Virus record (IMG/VR): IMGVR_UViG_3300006802_000698
Location: 1 to 21,468 of that record
DNA: 21,468 bases
Strand: one strand, 5' to 3'
Source: a virus
Made by a program: the position numbers and the translations under genes. Under the pieces are notes generated by a model, which ran no database searches, had not been told where the DNA came from, and was given only the letters and a program-made list of their open reading frames with translations. Below, in pieces: positions 627-9,307 of the stretch; positions within the stretch are counted from its first letter, which is position 1, and every line of letters begins with the position of its first letter.

Positions 627-771
627 TTTTCTTCTCCTCGGGTAAATATACTTCTACAAATGCATCACAGTTAGGGCATGTTAAATAGGTTACCATAACA
701 TAATCCTCATGATCTTCTAAATCATGATCTGCATTCCATATTAATTGTGTATGACAATGCCAACAGTTCAT
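607..771 (-). CDS. Small zinc-ribbon (CxxC) protein
   Basis: A 54-aa protein starting MNCWHCHTQL. Two metal-binding pairs are visible: C-W-H-C (residues 3-6) and C-P-N-C (about residues 32-35), the usual layout of a zinc ribbon; an acidic H/D-rich loop lies between them. The longer frame beginning at 789 is less likely, because the ATG at 771 overlaps the polymerase stop codon as TAATG and has a GGGAGG Shine-Dalgarno at ideal distance. Function unknown. Given its position between the DNA polymerase and DUF3310 it might bind nucleic acid or a replication protein. The family cannot be named from sequence alone. Confidence 0.68.
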   Translation of the reverse strand: MNCWHCHTQLIWNADHDLEDHEDYVMVTYLTCPNCDAFVEVYLPEEKKNGQDQS

Positions 772-2633
772 TATTTTGCCTCCCCCCAATTGGGTCCTTT
801 TTCATAATCGACTTTGTTAGGAACTTCTAATTGAACAGCTTCTTCCATTATTTTAATAATCTTTTCTGCTTGCTCTGGACTCTCTACCGATACATCTAGT
901 TCGTCATGAATTTGAATCATCGGAAGAATTCCTTCACGATATAATTTCACCATAGCAATCTTAGTCATATCCGCAGCAGAACCTTGGATTAATTTATTAA
1001 GAGCTTTGTACGTAAAGGCTCTTTTTATTCCGGGTCCATATTCTGCCCTTGCTTCTGTATGCGGTAAGGGTTTATGAACACCAAAAGTTGTTGGCTCCCA
1101 CAAATCAAAGTGACAAACACGTCCACCAAGGGTGCGAATACGTCCACGTTCCTGTGCTCTTCGTGATACAGCATTAATTAAGTCTTTAACAAACGGTGCT
1201 CTTTCATGATACTTCTTTAGAAGTTTCTCTGCTTGTTCTACTAATAAACCTAACTCAGCCATGAGTTTATTCTTACCCATACCATACATCAAACCTAAGT
1301 TAATTGTCTTTGCATCTTTACGATCAATGTCAGCCATCTCTGCTACTGCTTGGTGGAAGTCTGCATCACCGGCTCTATACTCATCCACGATCCGCGATAC
1401 ACCACCCAATTGCGAGAGAGATGCATAATGTACAACGAGTCTAGGTTCTTGTTGAGAATAGTCAAAGGCTCCCCATACACATTTCTCTTCCGGTAAAAAT
1501 AAACTTCGGATCAATGGACCAATCTTTTTATTCCTCGCCGGAATCTGTTGTAGATTAGGGTTCGAATAACTAAATCGTCCGGTCACCGTTCCACCGTCAT
1601 CGGATCGTATTTGATTGATGTCAGCATGAATACGGCCTTTGTGTTCATGTTCTAAGATTGTATCAATAAAAGTTGTATGCGCTTTATTAATCTCTCTTGC
1701 TTGAACAATTGATTGTGCTACTTCATGCGGATGTTCCGCTAAAAAGTTTTTAGTAAAACTAGGATTACCTTTCTCTGTTCGATCATAAGCTAAACCTAAC
1801 TTATCAAATATCTTTGCGATCGATGCAGCGGCCCAGATTTCTACATCCATACCGGAAATATCTTTTACCTTCTTTAGATATTGCTTTTCTTCTTTAATTA
1901 AATCTTTTTTAATTCTTGCAGCTTTTTCTAAATCAACACGGACACCTTTAAATTTCATGTCTACAAGACAAGGAAATAATTCTGTTTCAGTATTAAAGAT
2001 TTCCCAAAGGTCTTGAGAAGTTAATTCTTGTTGCATACGTTCCCATAACTTTAATGTAGCGACTGCATCTTGTTCTGCATATTCACCGACATACATCGCC
2101 GGTAATTTCCACATCTCTTTTTTAGGATTGATACCCCATTCTTTAGCAGCTTCATATAAAGCAGATTCATTCTTTCCCATACCCACATATTCTTTTGCAA
2201 GAGAGTCTAAATTATATCTAAGTCTATTTTCATTTACTAAAGATGCAGCGATCATTGTATCAACAATCTGTCCTTGTATTTTTAATCCTGATGCACGAAT
2301 CCAACAAACGTCATACATAGCATTATGAAATATTTTTGTACCGGGAGTATTTAAAACTTCTTTTTGAAACCATTCTAAAACAAGTTTCTTATCAAGATTT
2401 CCTCCACCACCATGACCAATAGGAAAGTATCCTTGCCAACCATCTACAGCAACAGCAATACCAATAATTTCGCCATCCCCTCTGATAGCGCCGGAACCTA
2501 ATGTGGTTAATCCTTCGTCTTTTGTTTCTAAGTCAATAGCTATTTGTTTAGCCTCAGATAAATTTTTTAATTCTTCTGGTGGACTCCACTCTGTTTTGGG
2601 TTTGTATTTCTTTTCAATTTTTTCTTCGCTCAT
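771..2633 (-). CDS. polA: Family A DNA polymerase with 3'-5' exonuclease domain (Leu762 type)
   Basis: The 620-aa replicative polymerase has an intact proofreading domain: Exo I D-L-E-T (residues 34-37), Exo II H-N-A-M-Y-D (103-108) and Exo III Y-A-E-Q-D (185-189). It also has a full polymerase domain: T-G-R-F-S (351-355), motif A D-Y-S-Q-Q-E (391-396), motif B R-x3-K-x3-L-G-x2-Y-G (438-451) and motif C H-D-E (576-578). There is no 5'-3' exonuclease domain, as usual in phages. In motif B the residue equal to E. coli Pol I Phe762 is Leu446. This variant is known from marine viromes and is thought to affect nucleotide selection and speed. The ATG overlaps the stop of the upstream 61-aa gene (ATGA), with AAAGGA upstream. 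The downstream CxxC gene is coupled by TAATG. All catalytic residues are present, so the enzyme should be active. Confidence 0.97.
   Translation of the reverse strand: MSEEKIEKKYKPKTEWSPPEELKNLSEAKQIAIDLETKDEGLTTLGSGAIRGDGEIIGIAVAVDGWQGYFPIGHGGGGNLDKKLVLEWFQKEVLNTPGTKIFHNAMYDVCWIRASGLKIQGQIVDTMIAASLVNENRLRYNLDSLAKEYVGMGKNESALYEAAKEWGINPKKEMWKLPAMYVGEYAEQDAVATLKLWERMQQELTSQDLWEIFNTETELFPCLVDMKFKGVRVDLEKAARIKKDLIKEEKQYLKKVKDISGMDVEIWAAASIAKIFDKLGLAYDRTEKGNPSFTKNFLAEHPHEVAQSIVQAREINKAHTTFIDTILEHEHKGRIHADINQIRSDDGGTVTGRFSYSNPNLQQIPARNKKIGPLIRSLFLPEEKCVWGAFDYSQQEPRLVVHYASLSQLGGVSRIVDEYRAGDADFHQAVAEMADIDRKDAKTINLGLMYGMGKNKLMAELGLLVEQAEKLLKKYHERAPFVKDLINAVSRRAQERGRIRTLGGRVCHFDLWEPTTFGVHKPLPHTEARAEYGPGIKRAFTYKALNKLIQGSAADMTKIAMVKLYREGILPMIQIHDELDVSVESPEQAEKIIKIMEEAVQLEVPNKVDYEKGPNWGEAK
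779..784 (-). promoter_or_regulatory. Shine-Dalgarno that fixes the start of the CxxC protein
   Basis: GGGAGG on the minus strand, inside the last codons of the polymerase gene, seven bases before the ATG at 771. It supports the internal start over the longer frame beginning at 789. Confidence 0.65.
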
Positions 2634-2815
2634 CTGTTTTTTCCTTTCATTGTTCTTTGGTGTTCTCTAATCATTTCTGGAATTTCTTCGGTCCATATTT
2701 TCATGTCGACTGTACGACAATCTTCTCTAAAGTTTTTATATTCGCTTTTAGTCAATTCAATAATAGAATTATTAAAAGTGATTGTTATTTTACCTTTTTC
2801 ATATTTTATTATCAT
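2630..2815 (-). CDS. Hypothetical 61-aa protein between helicase and polymerase
   Basis: A short basic protein with a beta-prone N-terminus (K-I-T-I-T-F-N-N) and a helical, charged C-terminal half. I see no known motif. Evidence that it is translated: its ATG overlaps the helicase stop codon by four bases (ATGA), its own stop overlaps the polymerase start the same way, and a GAAAGG sequence precedes it. It is therefore a translational bridge between helicase and polymerase. It could be a small replisome accessory protein, but that is only inference from position. Confidence 0.6.
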   Translation of the reverse strand: MIIKYEKGKITITFNNSIIELTKSEYKNFREDCRTVDMKIWTEEIPEMIREHQRTMKGKNR

Positions 2816-4320
2816 ATGATGTATGACCTTTCATAATTCTTAGGACTTACTATATGTAATGATTTCTTTGCTCTTGTTGTTGCTACATAAAATAATCGAT
2901 GTAACTCATCGGGACTTTTATCACTTTGTTCTAACGCAGCTTTCGTTAGATCCGGCAAGACTAATACATGATCCGCTTCCCCGCCTTTAGCTCCATGTAT
3001 TGTTGATAATAAAATCCTAGGATTCTTATTTATCTTCTCACCTTTTGCTCTCATATTTCTTATATAGTTTTCTGTGATTGTATCTAATTTCTCAAACGAT
3101 TCAAACCATACTTTATCAGTAAGCAAACCATGTTCTTCTTGACACTGTTTCAAAAGATACTTTGTATTGGAATGAAGTGTTTTACCATCTCGATAACCAG
3201 GAGAAACATTTGCACCTAAATAAGAATAGATATTTTTTATTTCTAAATTTGTTAGCATATCACCTTTTCGAAAAGCTTCCCAATTAGAAATAGCTAGAAG
3301 TAATTCTAATGAAATAGAATTTTTATTTCTATGTTGATAATACCAACCTTGTAATTCACATAATTCTTTTACATCATCTAAAAAATAATGTGCAGTTGAT
3401 AAGACAAGCCATTGTCCTTCACTCATATCAACTTGAGTAATGTCTTCGTAGTATTTTAAAACACCTATTTCATCCCTGGGTTTGTAAACTTTATCATAAC
3501 GATTAGCTACATTTGCAATGATACGTTGTGATAATTCATGAATAGGTCCACCAGGAATACGATAGGACTGTTCTAAAACTTTTATTTCATCTACTTCATC
3601 TTTCAATGCAATGAAATGGTCTATATCTGCACCGGCCCACTGGAAGATAGCCTGATCATCATCACCCGCGATGTATGTTTTTTTAGACTTCTTCCACATG
3701 GTCCGGACCATTTGCCATTGGAGATGAGACAAATCTTGCGCTTCATCGATAAATAAAACATCAAATTCTGGAGACATATCTTTTTCAATAAACTCCAATA
3801 ATAAATCGGTGAAGTCTTTCATGTTTCTTTCTTTTTTGTATCGGCTTAATTCTTTATCAATCAGATATAAAGTATCTCTTTCCATATCTAAAAGATGTTC
3901 GTTTAAATCATACTGTTCTAATACAGAAATCCCTCTAACCTTAGCTTTTTCAATAGTTTTTAAGTATTCATTATCAGAATTAAATACTCCATCATCATCA
4001 GAATAAGCGGCTGTTTTAATAGGAATACCACACTTTAAACCAAAATCTCTGTAGTCTTGTGGCCTCATCATTGCTTCTTTGGTTGCTCCTAAAAATCTAA
4101 ACGCAAAAGAATGGAGTGTTCTAAAATAAACTAAATCTTCTTTCTCATCTAAATTAAATTTATCAATGGCTCTTTGTTTAGCTTCATTGGCAGCTTTCTT
4201 GGTAAAAGAAAAGTATCCTATCTTTTTTGGTTTAACACCTTGTTGGATAAACTGATCCACCAAGTTTAACAATGTAGTTGTCTTACCTGTCCCTGGTGGT
4301 CCCAGTATGATCGTCTTCAT
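2812..4320 (-). CDS. UvrD/Rep-like superfamily 1A DNA helicase
   Basis: ATP-driven 3'-5' type DNA helicase, probably the main unwinding enzyme here. Numbered from the ATG at 4320 (502 aa): Walker A G-P-P-G-T-G-K-T (7-14), motif Ia S-F-T-K-K-A-A (38-44), T-L-H-S-F-A-F-R (68-75), Walker B D-E-A-Q-D (192-196), motif III G-D-D-D-Q-A-I-F-Q-W-A-G (219-230), motif IV Q-S-Y-R (251-254), motif V T-I-H-G-A-K-G-G-E (440-448) and motif VI Y-V-A-T-T-R-A-K (478-485). It is shorter than bacterial UvrD (about 720 aa), so the 1B/2B insertions are reduced. A longer frame begins at 4392, but AAGGAG lies just before the ATG at 4320, which is also right before the first beta strand. It starts inside the upstream zinc-ribbon gene (38-base overlap). 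Confidence 0.93.
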   Translation of the reverse strand: MKTIILGPPGTGKTTTLLNLVDQFIQQGVKPKKIGYFSFTKKAANEAKQRAIDKFNLDEKEDLVYFRTLHSFAFRFLGATKEAMMRPQDYRDFGLKCGIPIKTAAYSDDDGVFNSDNEYLKTIEKAKVRGISVLEQYDLNEHLLDMERDTLYLIDKELSRYKKERNMKDFTDLLLEFIEKDMSPEFDVLFIDEAQDLSHLQWQMVRTMWKKSKKTYIAGDDDQAIFQWAGADIDHFIALKDEVDEIKVLEQSYRIPGGPIHELSQRIIANVANRYDKVYKPRDEIGVLKYYEDITQVDMSEGQWLVLSTAHYFLDDVKELCELQGWYYQHRNKNSISLELLLAISNWEAFRKGDMLTNLEIKNIYSYLGANVSPGYRDGKTLHSNTKYLLKQCQEEHGLLTDKVWFESFEKLDTITENYIRNMRAKGEKINKNPRILLSTIHGAKGGEADHVLVLPDLTKAALEQSDKSPDELHRLFYVATTRAKKSLHIVSPKNYERSYII

Positions 4321-4465
4321 AGTGCTCCTTGTTGTAACATTTAATGCAATAGTGTTCGTCTGCTTTTGTCTTTCGACCAGGTTGTAAAACATTCTCGATA
4401 GTAATAGTCATTGCTTTAGAATATTTTCTACCACAATCAATACACTTAATAATGGTCGTCGGCAT
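4283..4465 (-). CDS. Small zinc-finger protein between primase and helicase
   Basis: A 60-aa product with C-I-D-C (residues 8-11) and C-I-K-C (about 40-43), a four-cysteine zinc-binding layout, followed by a His/Asp/Glu-rich stretch H-Y-E-D-D-H. It has one of the best Shine-Dalgarno sequences of the window (GGAGGTGA, four bases before the ATG). It overlaps the end of the primase gene by 20 bases and the start of the helicase gene by 38 bases, so all three should be translated from one message. Function unknown; a nucleic-acid-binding or primase/helicase-assisting role is plausible from context only. Confidence 0.65.
   Translation of the reverse strand: MPTTIIKCIDCGRKYSKAMTITIENVLQPGRKTKADEHYCIKCYNKEHYEDDHTGTTRDR
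4325..4330 (-). promoter_or_regulatory. Shine-Dalgarno that fixes the helicase start
   Basis: AAGGAG on the minus strand, four bases before the ATG at 4320. It decides for the internal start rather than the longer frame from 4392, which would add 24 residues with no known helicase element. Confidence 0.65.
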
Positions 4466-5966
4466 ATTTCACCTCCGATATACTAGGATCTGTTTTCTTC
4501 ATTGCTTGAATTTTTATAATCCTAGGTGTTTGATTCTTTAGGTTCATTCTGATTTCACCTTCAAATATATTAGATTGTTTAATCATGTTACCTGTTTTTG
4601 TTTTATCTATTTCCCAATTGTTTCTTCTTGCAAAATTATAAAAGTCTTCTATTCGGAAATAACTAAAGCCATCCTCGGTCCACGACATTTTATTCAACAT
4701 ATCTTCTTTCGTTCTTGCTTGTGCTCTATTCACGGTAAAGTCATACAATAAATTTTCTAATTGATTGTCATGATTTAAAGATTCTAAAGGCTTAATCTCT
4801 TGTAGATTTTCTAATAGTTCTTTCAGTATTACTTGTCGCCAATCCCGTGGTGCCACATTCGGCACCACTAGATTAGCTTGATCAAGACAACACAAAGCAA
4901 ACATATTAGGACTATGTAATTCTTCTGATTTTAATTTAATCACTTTACCTTCTACTTCTAAAAACCATTCCGGCGGAGTAGAAGTTATCTTAGTTAAATT
5001 TCTTAGTTCCGGTAATTGTTCATCTTCAAAACCAACACCATGTTTTTTAGTTTTGCATATCCCTGCACTACAAACAGAATTAATGGGTGCATCTTTACAT
5101 CTGTATTTATCATAATCTTTTTTCTCTAAAGATTTAATGACACCTAAAACTTCTGCTGCTTTTAGTTGAGGGTTCATATATTTTTGATTAGCTTCTTCGA
5201 CTAAATCCTTCCAATTGTCCGGATCAATTTTTCTACAAAAGACTCCAATATTGAATAAAGCATTGTTTCTACTACCTTCTCCAAAGCCTTCTTCTGCTAA
5301 TTTATTTAAACAAGGTGGTCCATCTACAAAAGCTTCTTTTGTTTTTGGTTTAACTATTTTTAGTTCATCTAGTTGAACCTCGGTCAGCGATACACGATCA
5401 TATAGTTCAAGAAACTCTTCTAGTTGTAATGCATCACCATTTTCATTTAGAGCATAACGCATACTCTTAATACCACCATGGTAAGGTAGATTTAAGAAAC
5501 TACCTAAGTGTCCTTCTTTAACTAATACTTCATCTTGTTTAGGAAATATTTCAGAGGATTGATACCCCAACAAATCTGCTATGGCTTTTAATTTTATTCT
5601 CATCAGCTTGGCTGATACAAATTGTTGAACAAATAAAAAGACGTGTGCTCCGCCCGATTTAGAGCGGAACACAACTAGAGGCAGATTGTTCTTGCGAACC
5701 TTTTCAATTAATTTTTTGTGGTCTAAGTTGTAGATATCAATATCAATACAACCCCACTTACATTGATTATTTTCATTAATAGGTATGATACCTAGAGCCG
5801 GAAGTTCACCGTCTATATGACGTTGCCATAATTCATCTGTAACAGATTTTCTTTCAAATCCGGATTTAACTTTTTCTTTACCACGATCATCACGTTCACC
5901 TGTTTTATAAGTATATCCGTGAGCATCATTAAAACCTTCAAATATATTTTTAAATCTTTCTATCAT
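4446..5966 (-). CDS. Archaeo-eukaryotic-type (AEP) primase with zinc-binding C-terminal part
   Basis: A 506-aa protein matching the AEP primases found in phages and in TOTE-type systems, not DnaG. The catalytic core shows D-I-D at residues 75-77 (metal ligands), then S-K-S-G-G-A-H (102-108), the nucleotide-binding S-x-S-G-G-x-H motif, and F-P-K-Q-D-E-V with G-S-F-L-N-L-P-Y (141-162). A helical part after residue 230 (G-S-R-N-N-A-L) looks like a primase C-terminal domain. It ends in a C-x8-C-x4-C-x4-H cluster (290-309) typical of these primases. The last 190 residues are not recognised. It would synthesise primers for the family A polymerase encoded downstream. Start: ATG with GGAG upstream. 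A cUUCGg hairpin precedes it, separating it from the SSB-like gene. Confidence 0.85.
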   Translation of the reverse strand: MIERFKNIFEGFNDAHGYTYKTGERDDRGKEKVKSGFERKSVTDELWQRHIDGELPALGIIPINENNQCKWGCIDIDIYNLDHKKLIEKVRKNNLPLVVFRSKSGGAHVFLFVQQFVSAKLMRIKLKAIADLLGYQSSEIFPKQDEVLVKEGHLGSFLNLPYHGGIKSMRYALNENGDALQLEEFLELYDRVSLTEVQLDELKIVKPKTKEAFVDGPPCLNKLAEEGFGEGSRNNALFNIGVFCRKIDPDNWKDLVEEANQKYMNPQLKAAEVLGVIKSLEKKDYDKYRCKDAPINSVCSAGICKTKKHGVGFEDEQLPELRNLTKITSTPPEWFLEVEGKVIKLKSEELHSPNMFALCCLDQANLVVPNVAPRDWRQVILKELLENLQEIKPLESLNHDNQLENLLYDFTVNRAQARTKEDMLNKMSWTEDGFSYFRIEDFYNFARRNNWEIDKTKTGNMIKQSNIFEGEIRMNLKNQTPRIIKIQAMKKTDPSISEVKYADDHY

Positions 5967-5986
5967 CCTATCTCCAATGTTTTAAA

Positions 5987-6006
5987 GTGGGGCCCGAAGA
6001 CCCCAC
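5987..6006 (-). terminator. cUUCGg stem-loop between SSB-like and primase genes
   Basis: On the minus strand GTGGGGTC-TTCG-GGCCCCAC forms an 8-bp GC-rich stem (one T-G wobble) closed by the very stable C(UUCG)G tetraloop, in an otherwise AT-rich sequence. Only three T's follow the stem directly, so termination would be partial. It may attenuate transcription so that the SSB-like protein is made in excess over the primase and polymerase, or protect the upstream mRNA's 3' end. It is the only strong hairpin I found between genes in the window. Confidence 0.6.
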
Positions 6007-6019
6007 CCCATGAGCAACC

Positions 6020-6811
6020 CTAAAAGGGAACTTTATCTAAATGCTCTTCTTCATTACTATGCTTTGCTGAAACATCTCCTTTGGAAACACTATCAGCAAA
6101 TTTCTTTGCTTGCTCGTACAATCCTCTATCCTGTATAGGTCCAACCTTAGCTAAAGACCATGTATTCCATGTTCCTTTGTTGTTTGACATCTCTACAGTT
6201 TTAAGATGATAGATATGACTAAACATTGGTGGTGTGAATTTTCCATTCTTACCGTCTAGTTTAATGCTACTCATCATAGAGTTCCATTGTCTACTTGTTT
6301 TTAAACCGGTAGACTTCATAGTAATTAAAGCAGTTTCTGCTGCTGATCCATCAGCACCTAAATTAATCACATAATAAGAGGCAGTATTTTCTAGGTAATT
6401 ACCATTTGGTAATCTGTCTTTACCCATACCATCTCTTTGTGTATCATTTATAATGCCGGAACTTGCAGGGTGAACTGCTATTGGAGCACCTGGACCTTCA
6501 CCTCGATCAGACCATTCCACATACTCTCTTTTGTAATAACAAGGAATAACTTGTATTCCTGCTTCACCGTCATAGAGTTGTTTAGATACTGTATTAAACA
6601 GCATTCCTGGTCTAGCTCCTTCTATATATTCCGCCTTAGATTTTTTTACCTGCGGAGATAAATCACCTAAGATTCGTATAAAAGGCAGTGCTAAATCATC
6701 AGCACTGATATGTTCCATACCTTTATGAGCATCTTCTTCGAACATACTCAAAGACGGTAGGTTGTCTTTCTTTACGTCTACGCTATTCGCGGTTCTCGTT
6801 TCTTTATTCAT
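6020..6811 (-). CDS. Putative single-stranded DNA-binding protein
   Basis: A 263-aa protein with a region rich in beta strands (about residues 40-225) and a C-terminal tail E-E-E-H-L-D-K-V-P-F. An acidic tail ending in Pro-Phe is the hallmark of SSB proteins, where it docks polymerase, helicase and primase. The body resembles a conserved phage protein (A-L-P-F-I-R-I-L near residue 42; G-I-Q-V-I-P near 85) whose role is not firmly known; I infer an OB-like fold but cannot show it. Position supports the call: it precedes primase, helicase and polymerase, and a strong hairpin after its stop could give it higher expression, as expected for a stoichiometric SSB. Start: ATG with AAAGGA upstream. 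The alternative is an unrelated phage protein that evolved a similar tail. Confidence 0.55.
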   Translation of the reverse strand: MNKETRTANSVDVKKDNLPSLSMFEEDAHKGMEHISADDLALPFIRILGDLSPQVKKSKAEYIEGARPGMLFNTVSKQLYDGEAGIQVIPCYYKREYVEWSDRGEGPGAPIAVHPASSGIINDTQRDGMGKDRLPNGNYLENTASYYVINLGADGSAAETALITMKSTGLKTSRQWNSMMSSIKLDGKNGKFTPPMFSHIYHLKTVEMSNNKGTWNTWSLAKVGPIQDRGLYEQAKKFADSVSKGDVSAKHSNEEEHLDKVPF

Positions 6812-6824
6812 GTTTAACGTTCCT

Positions 6825-7391
6825 TTATTTTTTACGGGTTATTTTAGTTTCGTCTTTAATAAATAAATTAAAGACTTCAGAGGGCATGTCCAACCCGTTT
6901 TGGACACGCTCTCTGAATAACGCTCTCAAAGTAGATGGTTCAACCTTTTCAGATTGTTCGGGTTCATATCCACTTGATGCGGCAAGGCTAAAAAATTCTT
7001 CAGCCTTGGTATCCTCGCCAGTGCCGAAACTTACGCTGACATTGTTTTTAATAATGTCCCCTAAGTTATTCTCGCGAAGCCATTGATGCGCCTTTTCTTT
7101 AAGTGCAGGATCTGCTTTCATGGTGCAGCTGTACTTCTTAGAAACTTCGACGGTACTTCCGTCTATAAGTTTCAATGACGCTAAACCTTGTTCTGACAAT
7201 AAATTTGGAATTACTTCAGAGCTTATGACATCTCTTCTTTGTTGTAAGTCCTTTAAATGTCTTTCTTGAACTGCTATTTGATCATCTAAGTCTAACATTT
7301 CTTGACACTTAGAAGCCAATTGTTGAATATTAGTTGATTTAGAAGCAAAACTTTCTTGGTCTTGTTCCATATCCGTTATTAGATTGCTCAT
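6825..7391 (-). CDS. Conserved-looking hypothetical phage protein, 188 aa, coiled-coil N-terminus
   Basis: Residues 25-65 form a predicted coiled coil (L-D-L-D-D-Q-I-A-V-Q-E-R-H-L-K-D-L-Q-Q). They are followed by a small beta region around G-S-T-V-E-V, then a helical part with H-Q-W-L-R-E-N-N-L-G-D-I-I-K. The composition suits a soluble, oligomeric protein. I do not recognise a named family. The frame extends to a TTG at 7418, but the ATG at 7391 has AAAGGA seven bases upstream, overlapping the stop of the preceding gene, and is the better start. It lies directly before the SSB-like gene (13-base gap), so a DNA-metabolism or early regulatory role is likely but unproven. Confidence 0.7.
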   Translation of the reverse strand: MSNLITDMEQDQESFASKSTNIQQLASKCQEMLDLDDQIAVQERHLKDLQQRRDVISSEVIPNLLSEQGLASLKLIDGSTVEVSKKYSCTMKADPALKEKAHQWLRENNLGDIIKNNVSVSFGTGEDTKAEEFFSLAASSGYEPEQSEKVEPSTLRALFRERVQNGLDMPSEVFNLFIKDETKITRKK

Positions 7392-7395
7392 ATCT

Positions 7396-7794
7396 TTATC
7401 CTTTCTTGTATAAGTCAATACTTAATGGGTAATATTTAAACTCTCTTTTATCCCATTTCAAGAGGTTAAATCTACCTGTGGTAATATCGCTCACAATAGC
7501 TGTGGATAAGCCAATGACAGCTGGATCACCTGTACACAAAATATAATCTTGTGCCCTAAAGTCCTGTAAGTTTTTTCTCATTTTAAAAACAAAAGGACCA
7601 GTACTAAAAACTATCTGCGACAATTGGGGTAAACAAATAACCAGATAGCCGAAGTTAGATGCCGATAAAATATTAATATTTTCCGGCGGATGCTGAAGAA
7701 CATATACAAAAGTTTCTTCAGGGTTTTCTTCTTTAAATGTTAAAAACTCTTGTAAGCTTTTGTCTTTATAGAGTTCAAATATTTTATTCTTCAT
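7396..7794 (-). CDS. Hypothetical 132-aa protein, first gene of the replication operon
   Basis: First minus-strand gene after the divergent promoter region. The product has a helical, charged N-terminus (residues 1-25), a central strand-rich hydrophobic stretch (G-Y-L-V-I-C-L-P) and a beta-prone C-terminus with D-I-T-T-G-R. No signal peptide or catalytic motif is seen and I do not recognise it. A TTG at 7815 also opens the frame, but it would lie at or upstream of the predicted transcription start. The ATG at 7794 has AAGGA eight bases before it and is preferred. As the promoter-proximal gene it may be an early protein. Confidence 0.65.
   Translation of the reverse strand: MKNKIFELYKDKSLQEFLTFKEENPEETFVYVLQHPPENINILSASNFGYLVICLPQLSQIVFSTGPFVFKMRKNLQDFRAQDYILCTGDPAVIGLSTAIVSDITTGRFNLLKWDKREFKYYPLSIDLYKKG
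7399..7404 (-). promoter_or_regulatory. Shine-Dalgarno fixing the ATG start of the 188-aa gene
   Basis: AAAGGA on the minus strand, seven bases before the ATG at 7391, inside the final codons of the preceding gene. It favours the ATG over the TTG at 7418. Confidence 0.6.
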
Positions 7795-7802
7795 TTTATT
7801 CT

Positions 7803-7807
7803 TCCTT
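7803..7807 (-). promoter_or_regulatory. Shine-Dalgarno of the 132-aa gene
   Basis: AAGGA on the minus strand (7807 to 7803), eight bases before the ATG at 7794, supporting that start over the upstream TTG. It overlaps the left arm of the inverted repeat by two bases. Confidence 0.55.
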
Positions 7808-7808
7808 C

Positions 7809-7837
7809 TTGACAAGTAAGATAGTGATGTTTATATT
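7809..7837 (+). promoter_or_regulatory. Sigma70-like promoter for the SNF2-like helicase gene
   Basis: A perfect -35 TTGACA (7809-7814) and a -10 TATATT (7832-7837; five of six) separated by exactly 17 bp. Start of transcription is expected near 7844, giving a leader of about 15 bases before the ATG at 7859. It is the best promoter match I found in the window. Confidence 0.75.
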
Positions 7838-7845
7838 TTTGTCAA
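7818..7845 (-). promoter_or_regulatory. Sigma70-like promoter for the replication operon
   Basis: On the minus strand a perfect -35 TTGACA (7845-7840) is followed after 16 bp by TATCTT (7823-7818; four of six). Transcription would begin near 7811, about 17 bases before the ATG at 7794. It lies on the same DNA as the plus-strand promoter, face to face, so both cannot be occupied at once. Confidence 0.65.
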
Positions 7846-7858
7846 GAAAGAAATTAAC

Positions 7859-9307
7859 ATGATTGAACATTATAAATTTAAGACAAAGCCATACGAGCAT
7901 CAATTAAAAGCTCTAAAAAATTCCTGGGACAAAGAAACATTTGCATTATTCATGGAAATGGGCACGGGAAAATCAAAAGTATTAATAGATAATATTGCAC
8001 TTTTATATGACAAAGGTGATATACAAAACGTATTAATTATTGCACCCAAAGGTGTTTATAGAAACTGGTATGAAATAGAAGTACCAACACATTTACCGGA
8101 ACATATAGAACACACAACAGTTTTATGGGATCCTAATTTAACTCAGACAAAATTAAATGAGTTGGATAGTTTATCACAGAACGATGCGAAGTTGAAGATA
8201 TTTATTATGAATGTTGAAGCCTTTTCTACAAATAAAGGAGTTGACTTTGCAGAGAAATTTTTAAACACTACTGTTGGGCGATCACTTATAGGAATTGATG
8301 AGTCTACGACAATCAAAAATCCGACAGCCAAGAGAACTAAAAATATTTTAAAACTTAGGGATTTTGCAAAGTATCGTAGGATTCTAACTGGATCGCCTGT
8401 AACTAAATCACCACTTGATTTATATTCTCAGTGTTATTTTTTAGATGAATGGCATCTTGGTTTTACATCTTACTATGCATTCCGTTCACGATACGCGCAT
8501 ATGATTGAGCGAAACTTTGGTGGCCGTCGTGTACAAATAGTTGGTTCTTATCGAAGACTCGATGAACTATCTGAAACCCTAGACAAGTTTTCTTATCGTG
8601 TATTAAAGAAAGATTGTTTGGATTTACCGGAAAAAACTTTTGTTCGAAGAACAGTTGAACTAACAGATGAACAACTAAAACTTTATGTATCAATGAAGAA
8701 AGCAGCAATAGCTGAACTTAAAGGTAAACAAATGACAACCATGAATGTCATTACACAAATGATGCGACTTCATCAAATCACTTGTGGTCATTTTAAAGCA
8801 GATGACGGTACAGTGACAGAGGTTAAAAGCAATCGTATGGATGAATTGCTCTCAATTCTAGAAGAAGTTGAGGGTAAAGTGATTATTTGGGCAAATTACG
8901 TTCATGACATAGAAAAGATAGTCGAAGTCTTGAAAAAAACCTACGGAGAGGACTCTACAGTGGCCTATTACGGTGCAATTGATGCAAACACACGTCAGAA
9001 AAATATTGCTCTGTATCAGGCTGAAAACGGAAAAACAAGGTATTTTGTTGGAAACACTCAAACTGGAGGCTATGGAATCACCTTAACCGCCGCAAATACA
9101 GTAATTTACTATTCTAACAACTATGATTTAGAAAAACGACTACAATCCGAAGATAGAGCGCATAGAATTGGTCAAAAGAATATCGTCACTTATATAGATT
9201 TGATTGCAGAAAAAACAGTTGATGAAAAAATTGTTAAAGCATTACGAAATAAGATTGATATTGCCAATGAGATTATGGGTGAAGAACTAATCGACTGGAT
9301 TAAATAG
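7859..9307 (+). CDS. SNF2-like superfamily 2 helicase/ATPase
   Basis: A 482-aa two-domain SF2 ATPase and the only plus-strand gene here. Motifs: Q-like Y-E-H-Q (12-15), Walker A G-T-G-K-S (35-39), motif Ia A-P-K-G-V-Y-R-N-W (62-70), Walker B D-E-S-T (147-150, instead of the usual DEAH), motif III T-G-S-P (177-180), and motif VI Q-S-E-D-R-A-H-R-I-G-Q (429-439), preceded by G-G-Y-G-I-T-L-T-A-A. This is the SNF2/Rad54-like arrangement seen in many phages: it should translocate on double-stranded DNA and could remodel or clear protein-DNA complexes or forks. No extra nuclease or methylase domain is attached. It has its own promoter and a weak Shine-Dalgarno (AAGAAAG). Its stop overlaps the endolysin stop tail to tail (8 bases), with no terminator between. 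Confidence 0.93.
   Translation: MIEHYKFKTKPYEHQLKALKNSWDKETFALFMEMGTGKSKVLIDNIALLYDKGDIQNVLIIAPKGVYRNWYEIEVPTHLPEHIEHTTVLWDPNLTQTKLNELDSLSQNDAKLKIFIMNVEAFSTNKGVDFAEKFLNTTVGRSLIGIDESTTIKNPTAKRTKNILKLRDFAKYRRILTGSPVTKSPLDLYSQCYFLDEWHLGFTSYYAFRSRYAHMIERNFGGRRVQIVGSYRRLDELSETLDKFSYRVLKKDCLDLPEKTFVRRTVELTDEQLKLYVSMKKAAIAELKGKQMTTMNVITQMMRLHQITCGHFKADDGTVTEVKSNRMDELLSILEEVEGKVIIWANYVHDIEKIVEVLKKTYGEDSTVAYYGAIDANTRQKNIALYQAENGKTRYFVGNTQTGGYGITLTAANTVIYYSNNYDLEKRLQSEDRAHRIGQKNIVTYIDLIAEKTVDEKIVKALRNKIDIANEIMGEELIDWIK

Follow-up and report, generated by a model that had tools for sequence, protein, structure and literature searches.

An overlapping pair of divergent promoters, conserved among relatives of a pelagiphage-type virus, is predicted between a helicase gene and the replication operon

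Divergent promoters with overlapping cores are known from tetA/tetR, where, unlike at the locus described here, there is a known regulator at the site. In the prokaryotic bidirectional promoters described by Warman, Grainger et al., one short stretch of DNA likewise binds polymerase in both orientations and gives rise to two divergent mRNAs; in the strict class, distances of 10, 18 and 23 bp between the two starts are the most frequent (PMC12825309). Five natural bidirectional promoters of E. coli showed no competition between directions at basal strength, and strong competition appeared in E. coli bidirectional promoters after improvement of the -35 box, so that competition there is confined to high activity (Warman et al. 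2026, PMC12825309). Overlapping divergent promoters occur in bacteria, plasmids and phages; in the conjugation control region of pLS20 (PMC4207663), for example, the cores likewise overlap and fire in opposite directions, with a regulator known at the site; none is known for the present pair. HTVC023P-type pelagiphages have been described as occurring widely and as ranking with the most abundant SAR11 phages (PMC9599517, PMC12753301). HTVC027P lacks an RNA polymerase gene and uses the host enzyme throughout infection (PMC12753301). In the literature searched we found no reports on promoters of HTVC023P-type pelagiphages.

The DNA analyzed here is a 21.5-kb virus fragment of HTVC027P/023Pt-like (pelagiphage) type, positions 1 to 21,468, referred to as the window. 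Its closest named relatives at the DNA level are phage 023Pt_psg01 and Pelagibacter phage HTVC027P, and its hosts are probably SAR11 ocean bacteria. An SNF2-like superfamily II helicase (7859 to 9307, plus strand) is the only plus-strand gene in the window, all other long open reading frames being on the minus strand; its 3' end meets minus-strand endolysin and structural genes tail to tail near position 9300. The leftward operon begins with a gene of the Pam3 gp32-like family (PF23992, no assigned function; 7396 to 7794, minus strand), whose true start is the ATG at 7794 and which is preceded by a probable ribosome-binding sequence, AAGGAAG (7801 to 7807, minus strand). The remainder of the operon (771 to 7391, minus strand) encodes Pam3 gp33-like and gp34-like proteins, a TOTE-type primase, a UvrD-like helicase and DNA polymerase A. 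Within the primase reading frame, at 5644 to 5673 on the minus strand, a T-rich tail follows a strong hairpin (TGTGTTCCGCTC...GGGCGGAGCACA), an arrangement that resembles a terminator. The gp32-like gene is divergent from the helicase in every relative in which both were found, including all those with a short gap. In the window the gap between them (7795 to 7858) is the sole divergent intergenic gap; the original prediction that this is the window's only transcription divide holds. In the genomes of relatives it is not the only one: 023Pt_psg01 has a second divide (MW574966.1, 16853 to 17094), which carries back-to-back, non-overlapping promoter-like sites.

Two opposed sets of promoter boxes interlock within 37 bp of the gap (7809 to 7845). 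On the plus strand, a -35 box TTGACA (7809 to 7814) and a -10 box TATATT (7832 to 7837), separated by a 17-bp spacer, predict an RNA start near 7844, from which the SNF2-like helicase would be transcribed rightward. On the minus strand, TTGACA (7840 to 7845) and TATCTT (7818 to 7823), with a 16-bp spacer, predict a start near 7811, from which the gp32-like/primase/UvrD/PolA operon would be transcribed leftward. The genes on both sides begin just downstream and point away, with predicted 5' leaders of ∼15 to 17 nt. The two -10 boxes do not overlap, being separated by 8 bp, the predicted starts are ∼33 bp apart, and neither -10 box of the window is directly preceded by the TGn of an extended -10. 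The plus promoter scored 11/12, the top value among 61 promoter-like matches in a scan of the window, and the minus promoter scored 10/12, its -10 box matching 4/6. Because the total of 61 falls below the 77 expected from shuffles, most other matches are noise. Both -35 boxes lie inside the arms of an inverted repeat, TTCTTGACAA-N23-TTGTCAAGAA (7806 to 7848), whose arms (7806 to 7815 and 7839 to 7848) are perfectly complementary over 10 bp, have centers 33 bp apart and, with their flanks, reach 14 nt at 93%; there is no second copy in the window. The arrangement TTGACA-N24..26-TGTCAA is expected 0.01 times in dinucleotide shuffles of the window, and an overlapping opposed pair this strong arose in 2 of 400 Markov shuffles. 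The two promoters sharing the same 37 bp and the perfect repeat enclosing their -35 boxes, both of which had been proposed from an initial inspection, were confirmed at these coordinates, the promoter pair at a level above chance.

Conservation in close relatives had been set beforehand as a test of this proposal, and the pair was retained in 75 distinct cores. Loci were gathered through the helicase (80) and through the left, gp32-like gene (80). The pair lies directly at the divide in 139 helicase-encoding loci, which reduce to the 75 distinct cores after two weak variants were added and chance matches removed; as the sequences are related, core counts are not independent. It is kept upstream of the helicase in all divergent short-gap loci down to ∼59% helicase identity, and GenBank phage 023Pt_psg01 is among its carriers. 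The search filter demanded TTG and AA ends. Apart from HTVC027P, set aside because its geometry is different, the only short-gap loci to fail it were L055 and L059, both with TATAAT on each strand. Nearly all relatives retain TTGAC of the plus -35 box, and both -35 boxes are consensus in 47 of the 75 cores. Among the 37 distinct cores whose arms are separated by 25 bp, information peaks at both -35 boxes, at TTATAT on the plus strand and at the minus -10 region, and is mostly below 0.7 bits between boxes; TATA is found at spacer 17 of the plus promoter in 32 of these cores and TATN at spacer 16 of the minus promoter in 27. Some -10-like matches are to be expected from the high AT content of the interiors; with shuffled interiors, 36% of cores (standard deviation, 5.5%) have both -10 boxes matching at least 4/6, and the observed share is 71%. 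A weaker -35 box goes with a stronger -10 box (Spearman -0.28, among related sequences); in the clade L053 to L065, several members combine weak -35 boxes with TATAAT on both strands. In L056 to L058 the interior upstream of the helicase, ATTATATCATATGATATAAT, is a perfect 20-bp palindrome with TATAAT on both strands.

We conclude that the conserved overlapping pair is almost certainly real. From sequence comparison we assign a probability of roughly 0.87 to its being a compact bidirectional element, in which two promoters of the host housekeeping-sigma type overlap and fire divergently, both of which host RNA polymerase would serve in this phage.

An alternative explanation could be that the inverted repeat is an operator and that a dimeric regulator bound to both arms represses or switches both promoters. 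The perfect 10-bp arms of the window, 33 bp from center to center, would suit such a regulator, as would the nearly palindromic interiors of L053 to L065 and the separate palindrome-like element that a sister clade has between its divergent genes. However, the spacing of the half-sites is not fixed: in relatives the arms lie 21, 24, 25 or 26 bp apart, a difference of up to 5 bp or half a helical turn, while the -35/-10 spacers stay at 16 to 18 bp. These gap changes were many, the 25-bp label requiring 12 on the helicase tree, at least nine of them forced by well-supported branches; in the class with a 21-bp gap, each -10 box overlaps the opposite -35 box by two bases. Nor do the half-sites change together. 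Co-variation of the arms in related phages had been put forward as a check, and the arms change independently: a -35 box departs from consensus in 28 cores, and in 21 of these only one side is altered (Fisher P = 0.10). Outside the -35 hexamers the arms are poorly kept, and the window's single copy of the repeat likewise speaks against an operator. The repeat needs no regulator because each arm combines one -35 box with the bases at which the opposite transcript is predicted to start and to bind the ribosome, and it would then be a by-product of promoter layout. The drifting gap and single-arm changes rule against the dimer operator, which we consider quite unlikely. The position of the pair is informative as well. 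In six loci a small gene separates the left gene from the helicase, on the minus strand in L100, L101, L105, L132 and L137 and on the plus strand in L140, and in all six the pair is found at the new junction, 12 to 22 nt from both start codons. Tracking of the new divergence point is required of a promoter pair and not of a gene-specific operator, which favors promoters. The inserted genes are unrelated, encode 48 to 64 amino acids and occupy the promoter-proximal slot of either operon; judged by their placement, genes seem to be gained at the first-transcribed slot beside the promoter core.

Two further readings were considered. Only the leftward promoter might be functional in part of the group, the left arm being kept for another reason. 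This could apply to the clade L106 to L146, in which the plus -10 box is TATTTA (3/6) and the minus promoter reads TTGACA or TTGACT, a 17-bp spacer and TATATG or TATATA. Nevertheless, this clade retains an intact plus TTGACA, and the plus promoter of the window scores 11/12; we consider this reading quite unlikely. The AT-rich stretch, situated at a switch in gene orientation, could also be a replication origin signal or an RNA hairpin, and when read as a single RNA it folds stably (z = -3.8). GC skew, however, merely tracks the coding strand, which rules against an origin signal, and a hairpin is opposed both by the predicted starts, which fall within the arms so that neither promoter's transcript holds the whole structure, and by the one-sided arm changes, which disrupt pairing. 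We regard an origin or hairpin as very unlikely indeed. The promoter pair is the reading we retain.

Some relatives have other layouts. In the sister clade L061 to L079, the same two genes are divergent across gaps of 214 to 330 nt, and the overlapping promoter pair is absent from these gaps. A single conserved palindrome-like sequence, AGATATTNNAATATACNATATCT, precedes the helicase ATG by ∼105 to 135 nt (in L074, for example, at 3872 to 3894); 31 viral stretches carry it, each in one copy. Lying between two separate promoter-like sites, it is a candidate for an operator or an origin element. In L061, L069 and L074, the outward promoter-like sites resemble each other, with GCTATTATAAAAAGT near the helicase and, in reverse complement, CTATATATAAAAGTG near the left gene; this may reflect a clade-specific promoter motif. 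The 49-nt gap of HTVC027P has TTGACT-17-TATATA rightward and an overlapping leftward TATAAT with a poor -35 box; its -10 boxes overlap (TATTATATA) and its predicted starts are ∼21 bp apart, which brings it close to the class with a shared -10. We recognized no such overlapping pair in HTVC023P.

RNA polymerase holoenzyme bound at either promoter also covers its partner. The earlier claim that polymerase cannot occupy both promoters at once is borne out to this extent, steric exclusion following from the overlap as is expected for the promoters of Warman, Grainger et al.; its importance would depend on how heavily the promoters are occupied. Competition between the opposed promoters is plausible on this analysis and is made more likely by the consensus -35 boxes on both sides. 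Polymerases would then compete, occupancy of one side lowering output of the other and setting the transcript ratio, and it is plausible from the layout that transcription of the helicase and of the replication operon would exclude each other. The text of the HTVC027P transcriptome paper gives neither starts nor helicase timing and does not name the helicase (PMC12753301). The overlap may result merely from a short intergenic gap, with exclusion playing no regulatory role and both promoters firing together early, a reading to which we give somewhat under an even chance. It is consistent with the sister clade, where 214- to 330-nt gaps separate the same divergent genes and lack an overlapping pair, so exclusion is not required for this gene pair; with the second divide of 023Pt_psg01, where promoter-like sites stand apart in 241 nt; and with the E. 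coli bidirectional promoters that were tested, whose two directions did not compete at basal strength (PMC12825309). On the other hand, the two consensus -35 boxes favor competition, and the overlap has persisted through many indels and through the insertion of genes beside the pair. That the overlap was selected as a ratio or exclusion device, in which polymerase must choose between helicase and replication operon with no regulator involved, is possible but doubtful; if true, such a device would set the balance, or lower noise, in pelagiphage-type viruses lacking a phage repressor.

The pair described here provides a conserved, testable promoter arrangement for the replication genes of HTVC023P-type pelagiphages, and its many natural variants in spacing and box strength should be useful for asking when overlapping promoters truly compete. 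With opposed -35/-10 sets, spacers of 16 to 18 bp and overlapping cores, it belongs with the overlapping divergent promoters of sigma70 type. It differs from the sister clade's control region, whose same two genes are served across a longer gap with a palindrome-like element and no overlap. Strictly defined bidirectional promoters have a shared or overlapping -10 and starts 10 to 23 bp apart, whereas in the window the -10 boxes (7818 to 7823 and 7832 to 7837) are separate. Overlapping divergent promoters are thus already known, and the geometry here is somewhat unusual in combining separate -10 boxes, starts ∼33 bp apart and two consensus -35 boxes.
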